Shown: one piece after another, positions 19,233-35,647 of the stretch
Layout of the letters: every line of letters begins with the position of its first letter
Position numbering within the stretch: the stretch's first letter is position 1
Assembly (NCBI GenBank): GCA_025363655.1
Contig: JANYDK010000072.1
Location: forward strand, 1-35,647
DNA: 35,647 bases
Direction of reading: 5' to 3'
DNA from: Deltaproteobacteria bacterium
Lineage (GTDB): Bacteria > Myxococcota_A > Polyangia > Polyangiales > JADJMO01
Notes under the pieces: generated by a model
Databases searched by the model: none
What the model saw: only the letters and a program-made list of their open reading frames with translations
What the model was told of the DNA's origin: nothing
Position numbers and translations under genes: made by a program

Positions 19233-20108
19233 TCAACGCCTCTTCGTCAGCCAGCTCGCCAGCCCATCGGCGAAGGCGCCGGCTGCGCCAGAATCGGTGC
19301 GGAAGTAGAGCGAGGGCTCGATCGCTTCGAGCTCCATCAGCGCCAAGGTGCCGTCGTCGAGGCGGACGAGATCGACGCGTGCTTGGAAGGGAACGTCGAC
19401 GAGCGCACCGAGGACGAGGTCGGCGGCCTCACGCAAGGCGGGCTCGGGCGTGATGCTGCGGATGAGCCCGCCGTGCTCTTCCTGCACGCGAAAATCGCCT
19501 GATTTGGGCACTTTTCGGATGGCGTGGCTGTAGCGACCGTCGAAATAGAAGAGCGAGTACTCGCCCTCGTCGAGCACGCTGCGCACGAATGGTTGCGCCA
19601 TCCATGCGCGCTTCGCGAAGCGCCCGGCGACGTGCGCCACGAACGCGTCGTCGAGCGTGCCATCGAGGCGAAATGTATCTTCGGCGTTGGCGCTGACGAT
19701 GGGTTTGACGACGCCAGGAGCGAGCGCGCGCACGTCCGCGACGTCGAGTCCCTCGCCCCAAGTCGTCGGCACGATCGGAACGCCGCGGGCCTCGAGCTCG
19801 CGGAGGTACGTCTTGCGCGCGTTCCAACCGACCATCGCCGCGGTGTTGGCGAGCGGTAGGCCACGCGCCTCGATGTCGGCGAGCGCCGCGAGGAAGGCGT
19901 CGAGGTGGCGCTGATAGTCCCAGGTGGTGCGGACGACGACGACGTCCCAATCGCCCTTCGCGGCGTCGAAGCGGCGCCAAGGGATCTCCTCGACGTGCGC
20001 GCCCCGTCCGCGAAGCTCGTCGATGACGATGGCGTCGTCGATGACGTAGCCGGTGCGATCTTCCAACGTGAGAAAGCCGACCCTCCGCAAACCGGTCGAA
20101 CCGCTCAC
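19233..20108 (-). CDS. ATP-grasp domain ligase (RimK/DcsG-like)
   Basis: The GTG at 20108 overlaps the TGA of the upstream aminotransferase-like gene by 4 nt; the frame is open further but only across that gene. The 291-residue product has an N-terminal pre-ATP-grasp region (RVGFLTLEDRTGYVIDD, then VVVVRTTWDYQRHLDAFLA) and an ATP-grasp core. The core includes NARKTYLRELEARGVPIVPT, the ATP-binding strand VVKPIVSANAEDT, WMAQPFVRSVLDEGEYSLFY, and the metal-binding end ARVDLVRLDDGTLALMELEA. This is closest to glutathione synthetase/RimK relatives and the cycloserine enzyme DcsG, which join a carboxylate to an amine using ATP. Coupling to the aminotransferase homologue points to modification of a small amino compound. 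Confidence 0.85.
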   Translation of the reverse strand: MSGSTGLRRVGFLTLEDRTGYVIDDAIVIDELRGRGAHVEEIPWRRFDAAKGDWDVVVVRTTWDYQRHLDAFLAALADIEARGLPLANTAAMVGWNARKTYLRELEARGVPIVPTTWGEGLDVADVRALAPGVVKPIVSANAEDTFRLDGTLDDAFVAHVAGRFAKRAWMAQPFVRSVLDEGEYSLFYFDGRYSHAIRKVPKSGDFRVQEEHGGLIRSITPEPALREAADLVLGALVDVPFQARVDLVRLDDGTLALMELEAIEPSLYFRTDSGAAGAFADGLASWLTKRR

Positions 20109-21472
20109 GAGCCGCCTCCGAGGAGCTGCTTGCCGAAGCGCTCGCCGACGTCCTTGAGGAGGCCACCGACGTCGCGATAGCGTCCGAGCAGCTCGGCGAT
20201 GGCACTCACCACGCGATCGATTTGCGCGGCGGTGATCGTCAGCGGAGGCTGCAATTTGAGCACATCGCGCGAGAGCAGCGTCGGCTGACAGACGATGCCC
20301 TCCTCGAGCAGTCGGAGCGCAAGCCACTGTCCAAAGACCTTCTTCGAGACCGCGCCGGTGAGCGAGGAAGCGATGCGGTCGAGGAAGCCTCCGGTCACCG
20401 TGGCGCCGAGCTCGATGCCGACGAGGAGCCCGCGTCCACGCACCTCCCGCACCAGCGGATGACCATGCAGCCGATCGCGGAGGCCGGTGAGCAGTTGTTC
20501 GCCGCGCGCCGCTGCGTTCTCGGAGAGCTGCTCCTCGGTGAGCACGCGGACGCCTTCGATCGCCGCGGTGCAAGCCAAGGTGTCGCCCGCGAACGTGGAG
20601 CCGACGAGATCGCGCAGCGGCCCGCCGCGATCGAAGACCTCGCGACTGGCCATCGTCGCACCGAGCGGGAAGAGCCCACCGCCGAGCGCGCCGCCGAGGA
20701 CGAGGATGTCGGGGAGGAACCCTTCGTGCTCGAAGCCGAACGTCTTGCCGGTGCGCCCGAGCCCGGTGTGCACCTCGTCGAGCACGAGCAGCGCGCCCGA
20801 CTTGCGGCAGAGCTCTTGCGCGCGCTTCAGGTATCCCGGCGGGGCGACGCGCACGCCGCCTTCGACTTGGAGAGGCTCGACGATGAACGCCGCATATTTA
20901 CGCTCGTTCATCGCTTCTTCGAGCGCCACCAGCTCGCCGAAAGGAACCTCGTCGCAGGCGTCGAGGAGCGGCGGAAAGAGCCCTCGCTCGCGCGCGTCAC
21001 CCGCGATCGAGAGCGTACCGAGAGAGCGACCGTGATGTCCGCCCGCGCACGAGAGGAGGTGCCTTCGTCCGGTCACCGCGCGCGCGAGCTTGCTCGCACC
21101 TTCGATGGCCTCGGCGTTGCCGGTCGCGAGCATCGCCATCGAAAGCGGATGACCCGCGAGGTGTGCGAGCTGCTCGGCGAGGTGGGCGACGAACGGCGAC
21201 ACCCCTCCGAAGCCCGCCGCCGGTGCTGCATCGGCGAGCTGCGCGCGCACGCCGTCGACGATGCGCGGGTGACGATGACCGTACGAGGCGGTGCCATCGC
21301 CTGCGGAAAAATCGAGGTACTCGCGACCTTCGTGATCCCAGAGCGTGGCGCCGCGCGCGCGGACGAAGACGCGATCGTTGCCGAGCAGCGAGGCGCGCCC
21401 GGCCGACGGATCGACGTGGCGCGCATACGCATCGAGCGAGGGGTGTCGCTTGTCGGTTCGGCCGTCACTCAT
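20105..21472 (-). CDS. Class III aminotransferase homologue with the PLP lysine replaced by Gly
   Basis: The ATG at 21472 is preceded by GGTGAC. The 455-residue protein follows the acetylornithine/ornithine aminotransferase plan throughout: TLWDHEGREYLDFSAGDGT, GHRHPRIVDGVRAQL, GGHHGRSLGTLSIAGD, LLVLDEVHTGLGRTGK, GSTFAGDTLACTAA and EVRGRGLLVGIELG. Asp232, which contacts the PLP ring nitrogen, is present. Exactly 29 residues later, where ornithine aminotransferase has the Schiff-base lysine (AKALGGG), this protein has Gly261 (LGGALGGG). Codons for both glycines are GGC, so a single sequencing error does not explain it. Normal transamination is not expected; it may bind PLP-amine or act structurally. 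Its stop overlaps the ATP-grasp gene start. Confidence 0.85.
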   Translation of the reverse strand: MSDGRTDKRHPSLDAYARHVDPSAGRASLLGNDRVFVRARGATLWDHEGREYLDFSAGDGTASYGHRHPRIVDGVRAQLADAAPAAGFGGVSPFVAHLAEQLAHLAGHPLSMAMLATGNAEAIEGASKLARAVTGRRHLLSCAGGHHGRSLGTLSIAGDARERGLFPPLLDACDEVPFGELVALEEAMNERKYAAFIVEPLQVEGGVRVAPPGYLKRAQELCRKSGALLVLDEVHTGLGRTGKTFGFEHEGFLPDILVLGGALGGGLFPLGATMASREVFDRGGPLRDLVGSTFAGDTLACTAAIEGVRVLTEEQLSENAAARGEQLLTGLRDRLHGHPLVREVRGRGLLVGIELGATVTGGFLDRIASSLTGAVSKKVFGQWLALRLLEEGIVCQPTLLSRDVLKLQPPLTITAAQIDRVVSAIAELLGRYRDVGGLLKDVGERFGKQLLGGGS

Positions 21473-21486
21473 GTCACCGAGTGTAC

Positions 21487-21516
21487 TCGGTCGATCTCGG
21501 TCAGTCAGTCGACCGA
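21487..21516 (-). terminator. Inverted repeat at the end of the 21505-23172 lipoprotein gene
   Basis: TCGGTCGA (21487-21494) and TCGACCGA (21509-21516) are exact reverse complements 14 nt apart, spanning the stop codon of the lipoprotein gene. A second short hairpin, CCGAG-TGTA-CTCGG (21477-21490), lies just upstream of the aminotransferase start and partly overlaps the first. There is no U-tract. They could attenuate read-through or control translation of the downstream gene. Confidence 0.3.
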
Positions 21517-23172
21517 CAGCACCGGCGCGCCCGAGACCGCTCCGTTGAGCGTCAGCCACAGGCGCTGACCCGCGGTGTCGACGGAGGCGAAGTAATCGAC
21601 GTCGGCAACGAGCGTCTTGCCGCCGAGCACGACCCTGGTCGGCGCCGCCGTCGCAGAGAAATTGCGGAGAACGATCATCGGATCGTGGAGCGTGCCTCCA
21701 CCGGTGTCGAGCGTGAGCGTCGCCGCATTCGCCGCCGCATCGACGGTCCAGGCGGCGTAGACGGGATCGAAGCCGAGCATCGAGAACGTCGCCTTGTCGG
21801 TGCGACCGACACCCGCCAACCCGTCCTTGGCGACGGTGCCGCGGCTCGCCGAGAGCTTCACCGTCTGCACCCGCTCGAGCTCCGCGACCTGCGCCGCGAC
21901 CGCCGAAGTGGTGTGGGCACCGAGGACGACGGCCACCGTATAACTCAAATATGGATATCCGCTGAGCGTCTTGCCGAACGAGCTGTACGAGCGTTGACCG
22001 ACGGCGCCGTAGGTCGTTCCCCAGGCGACGCGATGCGAATTGGTGACGTACGGCAGCTCGTATTGATTGAGCTGGAAGGGCCAATCCCAGTCGGCGATGT
22101 CGGTCAGGAGATCTTTGCCGGTCTTGCCCCACGACGACGAGAGGAGGCCCCCGCCGTAGTCGCCGCCGAGGAGGTGCGCATCGAACGTCTCCGTCGAGAC
22201 GAGGCCCATCTCGGAGTCGGTCGAGCTCGACCACTCGAACGCGTGCGGGATGGTGTTGGCCCCCGCGTAGCTCCACGACGAGTGCGGCGTCACCGGCGCG
22301 CTGGTCGTGGCGAAGCGATATTTGTCGCCCCAACCGACGCCGTCGACGGCGCCGCCCTTGCCGTCGTCCCACGCCAAATCACCGTAAGGCGCGCGCGAGT
22401 CGGCCTTCACCTTGTCGGGGCCGGCGGGCGTCGAGTCGTAGGTGATGGCGAAGAGCGGATGCGCGCGCCCGGTCGCGAACATCCAGTGCACGGTGACGTC
22501 GACGTTGCCGCCCGGGCTCACGCGCAGCTTGAACTCGTGAATCGCGTGGTGCTTGCCTGCGAGCACGGTCTTCCACGTGCCGCCGATGTGCTGCGTCTCG
22601 GACGCGGTGCTGGCGTAGTGATTGATGATGTAGCCGAAGCCCTGCCAGCCGTTCGAGCCGGTGCCCTTGATCGCGTGGGTCTTGCCGCCAGACACGTACG
22701 AGTACGCACGCAGGTAGCCGCCATGCTCACCGAAGGCGTCGGCCTTGTCGTTGCGAAGCAGCGCGGCGGTGCGTGGCTGACAGGCGTCGTCGCTCCACGC
22801 GAACGTGTCGGCGGCGGTGCCTTCGACCGCCGTGCCCGCAGCGATCGTCAGCGCCTTGCACCCGGTCGGTCCCGTCGTGACTCCGCCATCGCCCGTCGGT
22901 GGAACGCCGGTGTCGGAAGGCGGAGGCGTGCCCGTATCGGTACCGGGAGGCACGTTGCTGTCGGGAAGCGCGCCATCGCCGCCGCCGATGTCCGACGGAG
23001 GAAGTCCGCCGTCGCCGCCAGCGTCGCCACCGGGAGCGTACGTGTCGCCTCGCGAACCGCCATCGGAATTGCCGACGTCGTCCGTGGCGCCGTCGCCGTC
23101 GCTACCGGAGCATCCGAAGTAGAACGCGAAGAGGATCAGCGACGCAGCGCGCGTTCGTCTCGAGGAGTGCAT
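21505..23172 (-). CDS. Lipoprotein of unknown function with Asp/Gly/Pro-rich linker
   Basis: The ATG at 23172 (a GTG at 23181 is also possible) opens a 555-residue protein. It has a signal peptide ending in lipobox FYFGC, then a linker of about 80 residues rich in Asp, Gly, Pro and Thr with DTGTPP-type repeats. The mature domain (from about residue 110) is rich in Trp, Tyr, His and Gly, with stretches such as GTWKTVLAGKHHAIHEFKL and VDVTVHWMFATGRAHPLFAI. It looks beta-rich. The C-terminal ~100 residues (VYAAWTVDAAANAATLTLD onwards) look like a separate beta-sandwich as found after carbohydrate-active domains. I do not recognise the family. A surface carbohydrate-related role is only a guess from composition. 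Confidence 0.75.
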   Translation of the reverse strand: MHSSRRTRAASLILFAFYFGCSGSDGDGATDDVGNSDGGSRGDTYAPGGDAGGDGGLPPSDIGGGDGALPDSNVPPGTDTGTPPPSDTGVPPTGDGGVTTGPTGCKALTIAAGTAVEGTAADTFAWSDDACQPRTAALLRNDKADAFGEHGGYLRAYSYVSGGKTHAIKGTGSNGWQGFGYIINHYASTASETQHIGGTWKTVLAGKHHAIHEFKLRVSPGGNVDVTVHWMFATGRAHPLFAITYDSTPAGPDKVKADSRAPYGDLAWDDGKGGAVDGVGWGDKYRFATTSAPVTPHSSWSYAGANTIPHAFEWSSSTDSEMGLVSTETFDAHLLGGDYGGGLLSSSWGKTGKDLLTDIADWDWPFQLNQYELPYVTNSHRVAWGTTYGAVGQRSYSSFGKTLSGYPYLSYTVAVVLGAHTTSAVAAQVAELERVQTVKLSASRGTVAKDGLAGVGRTDKATFSMLGFDPVYAAWTVDAAANAATLTLDTGGGTLHDPMIVLRNFSATAAPTRVVLGGKTLVADVDYFASVDTAGQRLWLTLNGAVSGAPVLSVD

Positions 23173-29194: not shown

Positions 29195-30478
29195 TCATCC
29201 GTAGCGGTCTTGCTCGAGCATGGGGCCGAGCGGGTGACGACGCTCGGTGGCGCCGGCGACGCTCGGTTGCAGCTCGATGAGCGTGTGCAGCGGGACGTCG
29301 AGCGAGGGGCAGACCTCCGGCGCGCGATCCATGAAGTAGCCGTAGAGGACCCGGATGACGGCGTTGTGCGCGACCACCACCACCGGTGAGCGTTGGCGTT
29401 CGAGCTCGAGGATGACCGGTTCGAGGCGCTCGATGACGTCGACGTACGATTCGCCGCGCGGGTAGCGGTATCCGAACTTGTCGGCGGCGCGCGCCGAGTA
29501 CTCGTCGGGCATCGAGCGACGGATCTCGTCGTAGGTCATTCCATCGCAAATTCCCGCGTCGATCTCGTCGAGCGCGCGCCAGACGACGGACGACCAGGGG
29601 AGCGGTCGGGCGGTCTCGATCGAACGCGTGAGCGAGCTCGTCCACACCACCGGGGCGCCGTTCGGCGGAGCTCTTCCGAAGTGCTCGGCGAGCGCACGCG
29701 CATAGGCCTCGCCACGGACGGTGAGCGGAGCATCGCCGCCGATGCGCTCGCGCAGGTTGTAGACGCTCTGGCCGTGGCGCGTGAGGTAGATGGGGCGTCG
29801 GTCGTCGTGCGACGCGTGCGAGTTGAGGAGGTAGTAGACGATGCGTCCGGGCAGGTGACCGGTGATGCGGTGGAGGCGCACGTCGCGACCGAGGTCGATG
29901 AGCTTGATGAACGAGAGAGCGTCTTCGGTCTCTCCCTCCCCGACGGGCTCGTAGGCGCGCGCGTAGAGCTCGATTCGGCTGCGAAAATCGCCGATTGCTT
30001 CGTCCTCGTCGACGCCGACGTAGTCGGGGCTGCCGAGCTTGGTCGCGCGGACGTTGCGATCGATGAGGGCCGGGTCGTCGCAGATCGATTCGACGAAGAC
30101 GAGGTCGTAGCCGAGGGCGGCGGTGCGCGCGGCGATGTTGGCGCGACGGGCGCGGGTGGTGTTGGTGGCGTCGTAGATGCCGACCGCGCCGGCGCCGGCG
30201 AGGAAGGCGCAGGTGTCGTCGAGGGCCTCGCGCGCTGCTCGATCGCGCGCGGCGCTGCCTTCTTCGTTCGCGGGATCGAAGAACGACGCCGGCTGCCGCG
30301 CGCCGACCTGCGCACGACGATAGCCGCCGACGTTGAAGACCCGCGTCGGGTGGCCGAGCCAACCGAGGTAACGAGCCAGCTTCTGCGCGATGTACGATTT
30401 TCCACGCGCCGGGAGGCCGACCATGGCGATGACGAGCTTGCGGCCGAAGACCCGATCTCGACGCAGTCTCTGGATCAC
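29195..30478 (-). CDS. Bifunctional 6-phosphofructo-2-kinase / fructose-2,6-bisphosphatase (PFKFB-like)
   Basis: The GTG at 30478 overlaps the TGA of the BrkB-like gene by 4 nt. The 427-residue product reads along the eukaryotic PFK-2/FBPase-2 enzyme from end to end. The kinase half has the Walker A GLPARGKSY (Lys27), ARYLGWLGHPTRVFNVGGYR, DATNTTRARR, ESICDDP and KLGSPDY. The phosphatase half has LTRHGQSVYNLR with catalytic His235, IGGDAPLTVRG, VWTSSLTRSIETA, ALDEIDAGICDGMTYDEI, YRYPRGESY, VVAHNAVIRVLYGY and PLHTLIEL. The only obvious active-site change is Gln for Glu after RHG. It should make and/or break fructose-2,6-bisphosphate, a signal rarely considered in bacteria. It lacks the N- and C-terminal regulatory tails of animal enzymes. 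Confidence 0.93.
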   Translation of the reverse strand: MIQRLRRDRVFGRKLVIAMVGLPARGKSYIAQKLARYLGWLGHPTRVFNVGGYRRAQVGARQPASFFDPANEEGSAARDRAAREALDDTCAFLAGAGAVGIYDATNTTRARRANIAARTAALGYDLVFVESICDDPALIDRNVRATKLGSPDYVGVDEDEAIGDFRSRIELYARAYEPVGEGETEDALSFIKLIDLGRDVRLHRITGHLPGRIVYYLLNSHASHDDRRPIYLTRHGQSVYNLRERIGGDAPLTVRGEAYARALAEHFGRAPPNGAPVVWTSSLTRSIETARPLPWSSVVWRALDEIDAGICDGMTYDEIRRSMPDEYSARAADKFGYRYPRGESYVDVIERLEPVILELERQRSPVVVVAHNAVIRVLYGYFMDRAPEVCPSLDVPLHTLIELQPSVAGATERRHPLGPMLEQDRYG

Positions 30479-34112: not shown

Positions 34113-35647
34113 CTAGGGCAGACAGGCGCTCGCGCTGCACGTCGCGACGCCGCTGTCGGAGGCCGCACAGAGCGTCCCACACTTTCCGCAGTTGCTGGCG
34201 TCGCTGGTGAGGTCGGTCTCGCAGCCGTTGCTCGGGTCGATGTCGCAGTCGGCGAACCCGGTGTTGCAGACGAAGCCGCAGGCCGGCGCCGCGCAGGTCG
34301 AGCTCGCGTGACTGCGCGTCGGGCAGGCCGTCCCGCAAGCACCGCAGTTGGCCGGATCGAACGACGTGTTGGTGCACACCGAGCCGCCGCTGGACGTCGG
34401 ACACTTGGTGGTCGGCGACGGACAGACGAGCGCGCAGCCGCTGGAGATGCACTCCTGATCGGTGGGACAGATCTTGCCGCAGAGGCCGCAGTTGTTTCGA
34501 TCGATCGCGAGGTTGGTGCAGATCGAAGAGGCGCCGCTGGTGCACTTGGTGGTGCCGCCGGAGCAGGCGAGGCCGCACTTGCCGATCACGCACGAGAGGC
34601 CCGCGGTGCAGACGACTCCGCAGTCTCCGCAGTTCGCCGGATCATTGACGGTGTCGACGCAGGTGAACGGCCCGGGCGCAGTGCCGCACTTCTTGGTACC
34701 GGCGCCGCAGCTGAGGCCGCACTTGCCGGCGGAGCAGACCTCACCGCCGGCGACGTCGCAGGTGGTGGTGCAGCCGCCGCAGTTGCTCGGATCTTTCGAG
34801 GTGTCGACGCAGCTGCTGCCGCACTTGGTCGAGCCGCCGACGCAGACGAGTGAGCACCCCCCCGACGCGCAGACCTGACCGCTCGGACAAGGCGCCGCGC
34901 ATCCGCCGCAGTTGGCGGGATCGGTTTTGGTATCCACACAAGACGCGCCACACTTGCTGGTGCCACCGCCGCAGCTGAGGCTGCAGGTGCTCCCCGAGCA
35001 GACCTCGCCGATCGCGGTGTTGCAGGTCTTGCTGCAAGTGCCGCAGTTGGCGGGATCGGTTTTGGTATCCACACAAGACGAGCCGCACTTGCTGGTGCCG
35101 CCGCCGCAGCTCAGGCTGCACGTGCCCCCCGAGCAGACCTCGCCGATGGCGGTGTTGCACGCCTTGCCGCAGGTGCCGCAGTTGGCGGGATCTTTCGTGG
35201 TGTCGACGCACGCGGTGCCGCACTTGGTGCTGCCGCCGACGCAGGTGAGCGCGCAGCCGCCCGAAGAGCAGACCTGACCGGTCGGGCACGTCTTGCCGCA
35301 GCCGCCGCAGTTGCCTGGATCTTTCCCGGTGTCGACGCACGCGGTGCCACACTTGGTGCTGCCGCCGCCGCAGCTGAGGCTGCAGGTGCTCCCCGAACAA
35401 ACTTCACCGCCCGCGGTGTTGCACGCCTTCGCGCAGACGCCGCAGTTGGCGGGATCTTTCGTCAGGTCGACGCACGCGGTGCCGCACTTGGAGCTACCGC
35501 CGACGCACGAGAGCGCGCAGCCGCCCGCCGAACAGACCTGACCGGTGGGACACGCCTTGCCGCAGCCGCCGCAGTTGGCGGGATCTTTTCCGGTGTCGAC
35601 GCAGGAGCTACCGCACTTGGTGCTGCCGCCGCCGCAGCTGAGGCTGC
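34113..35647 (-). CDS. Large Cys-rich repeat protein, C-terminal part
   Basis: The frame is open from the stop at 34113 to the window end (510 residues seen; the N-terminus lies outside). The protein is built of units of 43-45 residues, each with the pattern TKCGxxCVDTxxDPxNCGxCxxxCxxxxxCxxGxC. Two unit types alternate, one with CPTGQVCSxGGCALxC and one with CNTAxGEVCSGxTCSLSC, giving an 88-residue period. Toward the C-terminus units become divergent and end with CDIDPSNGCETDLTSDASNC. This last segment, with a DIDPxNGCE core, is frequent at the end of myxobacterial Cys-rich surface proteins. A secreted, disulfide-stabilised adhesin or matrix role is plausible but unproven. Confidence 0.85.
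   Translation of the reverse strand, partial: SLSCGGGSTKCGSSCVDTGKDPANCGGCGKACPTGQVCSAGGCALSCVGGSSKCGTACVDLTKDPANCGVCAKACNTAGGEVCSGSTCSLSCGGGSTKCGTACVDTGKDPGNCGGCGKTCPTGQVCSSGGCALTCVGGSTKCGTACVDTTKDPANCGTCGKACNTAIGEVCSGGTCSLSCGGGTSKCGSSCVDTKTDPANCGTCSKTCNTAIGEVCSGSTCSLSCGGGTSKCGASCVDTKTDPANCGGCAAPCPSGQVCASGGCSLVCVGGSTKCGSSCVDTSKDPSNCGGCTTTCDVAGGEVCSAGKCGLSCGAGTKKCGTAPGPFTCVDTVNDPANCGDCGVVCTAGLSCVIGKCGLACSGGTTKCTSGASSICTNLAIDRNNCGLCGKICPTDQECISSGCALVCPSPTTKCPTSSGGSVCTNTSFDPANCGACGTACPTRSHASSTCAAPACGFVCNTGFADCDIDPSNGCETDLTSDASNCGKCGTLCAASDSGVATCSASACLP
35043..35647 (-). repeat. 264-bp supra-repeat in the Cys-rich protein gene
   Basis: The landmark GCAGTTG recurs at 35043, 35178, 35307, 35442 and 35571, that is with spacings of 135, 129, 135 and 129 bp. 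Two unit types of 45 and 43 codons therefore alternate as a 264-bp pair. Nucleotide identity between equivalent units is high, indicating recent tandem duplication of the pair. Units upstream of this (lower coordinates) are more diverged. Confidence 0.85.

Follow-up and report, generated by a model that had tools for sequence, protein, structure and literature searches.

Aminotransferases that use pyridoxal phosphate (PLP) are defined catalytically by the lysine with which the cofactor forms a Schiff base. Among class III enzymes, the nearest solved relatives, by sequence, of the protein described here are the putrescine aminotransferase YgjG of E. coli (PDB 4UOX/4UOY) and the transaminase domain of PigE (PDB 4PPM). 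Proteins that have lost a Schiff-base lysine and nevertheless persist are known from other families: SPT1 (LCB1) of serine palmitoyltransferase is a lysine-less relative of PLP enzymes, yet it is required and forms a heterodimer with a lysine-containing partner (PMC6148460), and type 1 opsin-related proteins devoid of the retinal lysine persist and are expressed (PMC4915679). In the open-access literature that we searched, the coverage of which is incomplete, no description of a lysine-less class III aminotransferase homolog was found. Such a homolog is encoded in the window analyzed here, i.e., the entire 35,647-nucleotide stretch of contig JANYDK010000072.1 (assembly GCA_025363655.1) from a soil deltaproteobacterium of the order Polyangiales. 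Like YgjG and PigE, this protein has the class III fold over nearly its full length and the same Asp, Glu and phosphate-binding Thr positions; unlike YgjG, with its Lys, and PigE, with the Lys-containing motif SKSLSGG, it has Gly at the lysine position, and three other contacts are likewise altered, to Asn, His and His. The comparison with SPT1 is limited by the latter belonging to the alpha-oxoamine synthase family and being heterodimeric with a lysine-containing partner, whereas the opsin-related proteins share the loss of the Schiff-base lysine and the persistence of the protein but have an unrelated fold and cofactor.

The gene is located on the minus strand (20105..21472), with an ATG start at 21472 and a stop codon at 20105-20107, and encodes 455 amino acids in a frame without internal stops; its GC3 of 0.82 is coding-like and the same as that of the neighboring genes. 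The Pfam profile Aminotran_3 (PF00202) matches residues 35-428 over profile positions 12-402 of 403 (E=1e-80; 271.7 bits against a curated cut-off of 30.5). An AlphaFold model built from 13 sequences has a mean pLDDT of 78.7 and a pTM of 0.82, and the best PDB match to the predicted fold is YgjG (Foldseek E=1.3e-34, TM 0.81). Residue 261, within DILVLGGALGGGLFP, is Gly, and its GGC codon (20690..20692, minus strand) aligns with the Schiff-base lysine codon that is AAG or AAA in all 17 lysine-containing relatives; hence, the protein has lost the catalytic residue that is invariant in these relatives, as expected of a pseudoenzyme. Asp232 (20777..20779, minus strand), aligned with YgjG Asp271 that contacts the pyridine nitrogen, is retained in the motif VLDEVHTG, 29 residues before Gly261, which is the spacing between Asp271 and Lys300 of YgjG (PMC4244111). 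Thus, the original prediction, made from the DNA sequence alone, was correct with respect to the Gly, the retained Asp and the distance between them. It had further taken both GGC codons at this site to be anomalous, which applies to the second one only because Gly260 is the family norm (the Polyangium genes read CTC GGC AAG). The replacement of AAG/AAA by GGC requires changes in all three bases, so that a one-base error is excluded, as had been argued. Alignment of the homolog with its relatives revealed no obvious candidate for a replacement lysine near the site: only K8, K216, K243 and K440 among its 11 lysines are uncommon in the relatives, and K243 is also present in YgjG, whose PLP lysine is Lys300.

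The PLP and substrate contacts of YgjG described in the structure paper (PMC4244111) were mapped onto the homolog through the alignments, and the results contradict the claim that all landmark motifs are kept. In addition to the lysine, Asp59 replaces a near-invariant Phe (F59D; 21296..21298; YgjG Phe91, at the entrance of the substrate site), Phe88 replaces an invariant His (H88F; 21209..21211; YgjG Gln119, a substrate contact), Asn119 replaces an invariant Gly (G119N; 21116..21118; YgjG Gly150, at the PLP phosphate), His146 replaces the Phe/Tyr stacked on PLP ([Y/F]146H; 21035..21037; YgjG Phe180), His235 replaces the invariant Gln that follows DEV (Q235H; 20768..20770; YgjG Gln274), and Val290 replaces an invariant His near the phosphate-binding Thr293 (H290V; 20603..20605), all assigned by alignment and all on the minus strand. 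Accordingly, among the features of a functional enzyme, Asp232 is present, and the Schiff-base lysine, the phosphate-loop Gly, the stacking aromatic and the Gln after DEV are missing. Asp232, Glu204, Val234, Thr293 and Lys406 are unchanged, and the retention of the first four leaves room for non-covalent binding of PLP. Among the 17 lysine-containing relatives, 106 positions are near-invariant, and the homolog is changed at 22 of these, many of them outside the pocket. The changes affect 5 of the 10 YgjG-defined contacts (F59D, H88F, G119N, Q235H and K261G) compared to 17 of the 96 other positions (p=0.03, or p=0.08 without K261). When only strict invariants are considered, the homolog departs at 11 of 62 positions, compared to a median of one position when each lysine-containing relative in turn is left out.

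Scans of 184 genomes from the same order, 318 from the class and 379 from the phylum (overlapping samples) identified about 30 family members at 40-55% identity, almost all with the lysine. The 17 core relatives compared (44-55% identical) all retain both the lysine and the pocket, and the lysine is likewise present in every one of a further 21 class III aminotransferases that were retrieved with them. Polyangiales members such as L021-L023 and L031 of Polyangium, which are 52-54% identical to the homolog over the whole length and share its C-terminal GQW region, differ from it in having an intact lysine and pocket and an adjacent gene for a radical-SAM enzyme, which is missing from the window genome. 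The lysine is absent in five genomes, being replaced by Gly in the window, by Glu in three cases (L041-L043) and by Arg in one (L046); the latter four genomes belong to one other genus of the Polyangiales. These four copies resemble the window homolog in the loss of the lysine, an eroded pocket, the lack of a radical-SAM partner and an intact open reading frame, and differ from it in the replacement residues, the genomic location and the position in the tree. The damage to the pocket differs between the lysine-less copies, with Arg119, Ala204, Ala234 and Pro293 in L041 and L043, Ala119 in L042, and Ser146, Asp204 and Glu235 in L046. In L041, the changes are heavily concentrated in the pocket (7 of the 10 YgjG-defined contacts versus 5 of the 96 other near-invariant positions, p=3e-6), and four strict invariants, at positions 88, 119, 261 and 290, are changed in both the window homolog and the Glu clade (p=6e-4; 0.003 without position 261). 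Two further observations concern family members with the lysine. The divergent L051 (G128) has lost the equivalents of His88 and Thr293, as if part-way through pocket erosion, and L024 (CAMDLH010000019.1), a myxobacterial-type family gene accompanied by its radical-SAM partner, comes from a metagenome-assembled genome with the title Bordetella parapertussis, an organism label that looks wrong.

A radical-SAM/SPASM gene adjoins 24 of the 26 testable lysine-containing family genes, usually directly downstream; the two exceptions, L051 and L052, are both divergent outliers, and two other genes with the lysine (L049 and L050), which lie at contig ends, are outside the testable set. Beside the lysine-less genes, such a neighbor is absent in all five cases, and genome-wide searches of these five genomes found no radical-SAM ortholog, the best matches showing about 30-32% identity (E at least 4e-23) compared to 57-93% for the orthologs in genomes with the lysine. 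The loss of the lysine thus tracks the absence of the radical-SAM gene, a pattern rather than a statistical proof because only two, at most three, independent losses are involved. In several genomes with the lysine (L058, L060, L065, L025/L061, L035 and L059), the radical-SAM gene is followed in an operon by genes for FabZ-like, truncated ketosynthase-like and FabF-like proteins, an SDR and a nitroreductase, the last two named by eye. The FabZ-like and FabF-like proteins of these operons produce below-cut-off scores to the cispentacin proteins AmcE and AmcF.

In the phylogenetic tree, the Glu and Arg copies belong to a clade of 18 members (support 97/98) from which the window homolog is excluded, and parsimony on this tree yields two lysine losses. 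A tree constrained to unite all lysine-less copies is worse by 17.6 log-likelihood units (AU p=0.053), so that a single origin is only marginally disfavored. The branch leading to the window homolog is long (0.81 versus a median of 0.32). Genes for a methylmalonyl-CoA-mutase-like protein and a Lon-type protease (both named by eye) are common neighbors in the genus with the Glu and Arg copies, which suggests that these copies occupy a single ancestral genomic place. In L054 (9184-10836) and L055 (3426-5078), 26 and 51 bases, respectively, separate the Glu-type gene from the methylmalonyl-CoA-mutase-like gene that precedes it on the same strand.

Constraint following the loss can be seen directly in the Glu clade. 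L041 and L043 both have Glu in place of the lysine and a phosphate site in ruins; they share 95% identity, and their dN/dS of 0.058 (NG86) is at or below the values for pairs of lysine-containing Polyangium genes (0.066-0.14); provided that Glu is ancestral to all three copies, this implies strong purifying selection on the lysine-less form. For the background branches, a codon maximum-likelihood model run on a reduced set of taxa estimated omega at 0.028; the estimates were 0.025 on the branches inside the Glu clade and 0.032 on the one leading to the window homolog, where synonymous change is saturated. Forcing omega=1 costs 290 lnL on the Glu branches and 24 lnL on the window branch. The window value averages over a branch that is both long and saturated, so any relaxation is undatable and could have come late, and the window lineage includes no close relative with which selection on this copy after the loss could be measured directly. 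According to the original prediction, lysine in all closest homologs would point to a recent dead allele; the nearest relatives indeed have it, but this allele is not a recent one, nor is it evidently dead, given the several pocket changes, the intact open reading frame and the strong purifying selection that followed the loss in the second lineage.

Together, these observations make it probable, although far from certain, that the window gene derives from an aminotransferase whose biosynthetic partner was lost and which turned into a retained, constrained pseudoenzyme that forms no Schiff base with PLP and has a binding role. The first of the possibilities named in the original prediction, that a PLP-fold protein without the lysine may be a pseudoenzyme, thus gains support from the altered pocket, the intact frame and the constraint in the second lineage. 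Under this scenario, the ancestral proteins would have been PLP-dependent aminotransferases with a radical-SAM enzyme as partner, in many cases within a fatty-acid- or polyketide-like biosynthetic operon; in the window lineage, the radical-SAM partner would have disappeared, the PLP lysine would have changed to Gly along with other cofactor and substrate contacts, and the fold would have been retained. Because internal aldimine chemistry requires the lysine, the present protein would be incapable of the internal aldimine formation on which normal transamination depends, and would most likely function instead as a folded dimer with a binding role, either through a ligand held in the remodeled pocket or through a protein partner, e.g., the ATP-grasp ligase encoded next to it. 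The family therefore offers a small natural experiment on the change from enzyme to pseudoenzyme, in which lineages lost the lysine while the protein stayed, each without the radical-SAM gene that accompanies the family elsewhere, and in which lysine-containing sisters are at hand for comparison. In practical terms, automatic annotation may label such lysine-less genes as active aminotransferases.

A less likely but serious alternative is that the gene is a relict in slow decay, in which case the aminotransferase became useless once the radical-SAM pathway was lost and the changes of the lysine and the pocket are unselected drift. The long branch, the spread of changes at near-invariant positions beyond the pocket and the absence of the radical-SAM gene all fit this scenario, but 455 intact codons with coding-like composition, the overlapping start of the downstream gene, the rejection of omega=1 for the window branch as a whole, and the strong purifying selection on the comparable Glu-type copies argue against it. 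We consider it unlikely that the protein is a lysine-independent enzyme using PLP, PMP or another ligand, or a ligand sensor, with a cofactor or analog held non-covalently in the pocket. The five retained residues, from Glu204 to Lys406, would suit such a protein, as would the two new histidines, which align with PLP- or substrate-contacting positions of YgjG; His146 and His235 stand where an aromatic residue and Gln are usual, and one of the two might serve as a base. A precedent is ColD, a dehydratase of fold type I in which His takes the place of Lys. However, the phosphate-loop Gly119 is now Asn, and the sites of the Glu-type relatives are damaged differently (Arg119, Pro293, Ala204), which points away from a shared new chemistry. 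It would be bolder still, and is rather doubtful, to propose that this family repeatedly turns a radical-SAM-partnered aminotransferase into a constrained lysine-less protein and that the window pocket senses or transforms a ligand without the lysine-PLP bond, together with the ATP-grasp ligase of the operon.

It appears very improbable that the homolog pairs with a lysine-containing class III aminotransferase as the regulatory or structural subunit of a heterodimer, in the way that SPT1 (LCB1) pairs with SPT2. The active sites of class III enzymes lie at the dimer interface, with residues from both subunits (PMC4244111), and serine palmitoyltransferase sets the precedent (PMC6148460), but the window genome encodes no family member with the lysine, its other class III proteins being at most 38% identical to the homolog. 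A lysine-containing paralog as the partner was rejected more generally, as genome-wide searches detected none in any of the five lysine-less genomes. Finally, a sequencing or assembly error, for which nothing specific speaks although the species is represented by one assembly, can be practically dismissed in view of the three differing codon bases, the linked pocket changes, the intact frame and the four other lysine-less genomes.

The gene directly downstream of the homolog encodes an ATP-grasp ligase of 291 amino acids (19233..20108, minus strand; GTG start), and its start overlaps the stop of the homolog by 4 bases, so that the two genes likely share an operon. A functional link between the two proteins is only a guess, as the pairing is not conserved elsewhere: the relatives of the ATP-grasp protein (33-65% identical) are found in varied contexts, none of them beside a member of the homolog's family, and a conserved pairing was accordingly rejected. 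A single relative (G001) does lie next to a class III gene, the product of which is an unrelated aminotransferase with the lysine. Against the NCBIfam model for the D-cycloserine synthetase DcsG, the ATP-grasp protein scores 130 bits, below the cut-off of 360, and is not assigned to this equivalog. Upstream, a gene for a secreted or lipoprotein-like protein of 555 amino acids without a Pfam match (21505..23172, minus strand) ends 32 bases before the ATG of the homolog. A search for conserved flanks in same-family genomes yielded nothing beyond weak matches to response regulators, at most 43% identical. Elsewhere on the minus strand of the window, the product of 29195-30478 contains a motif that by eye resembles eukaryote-type 6-phosphofructo-2-kinase, and 34113-35645 encodes a cysteine-rich repeat protein with GGxxKCGxxCVDxxxDPxNCGGCGxxC units that runs off the window end.
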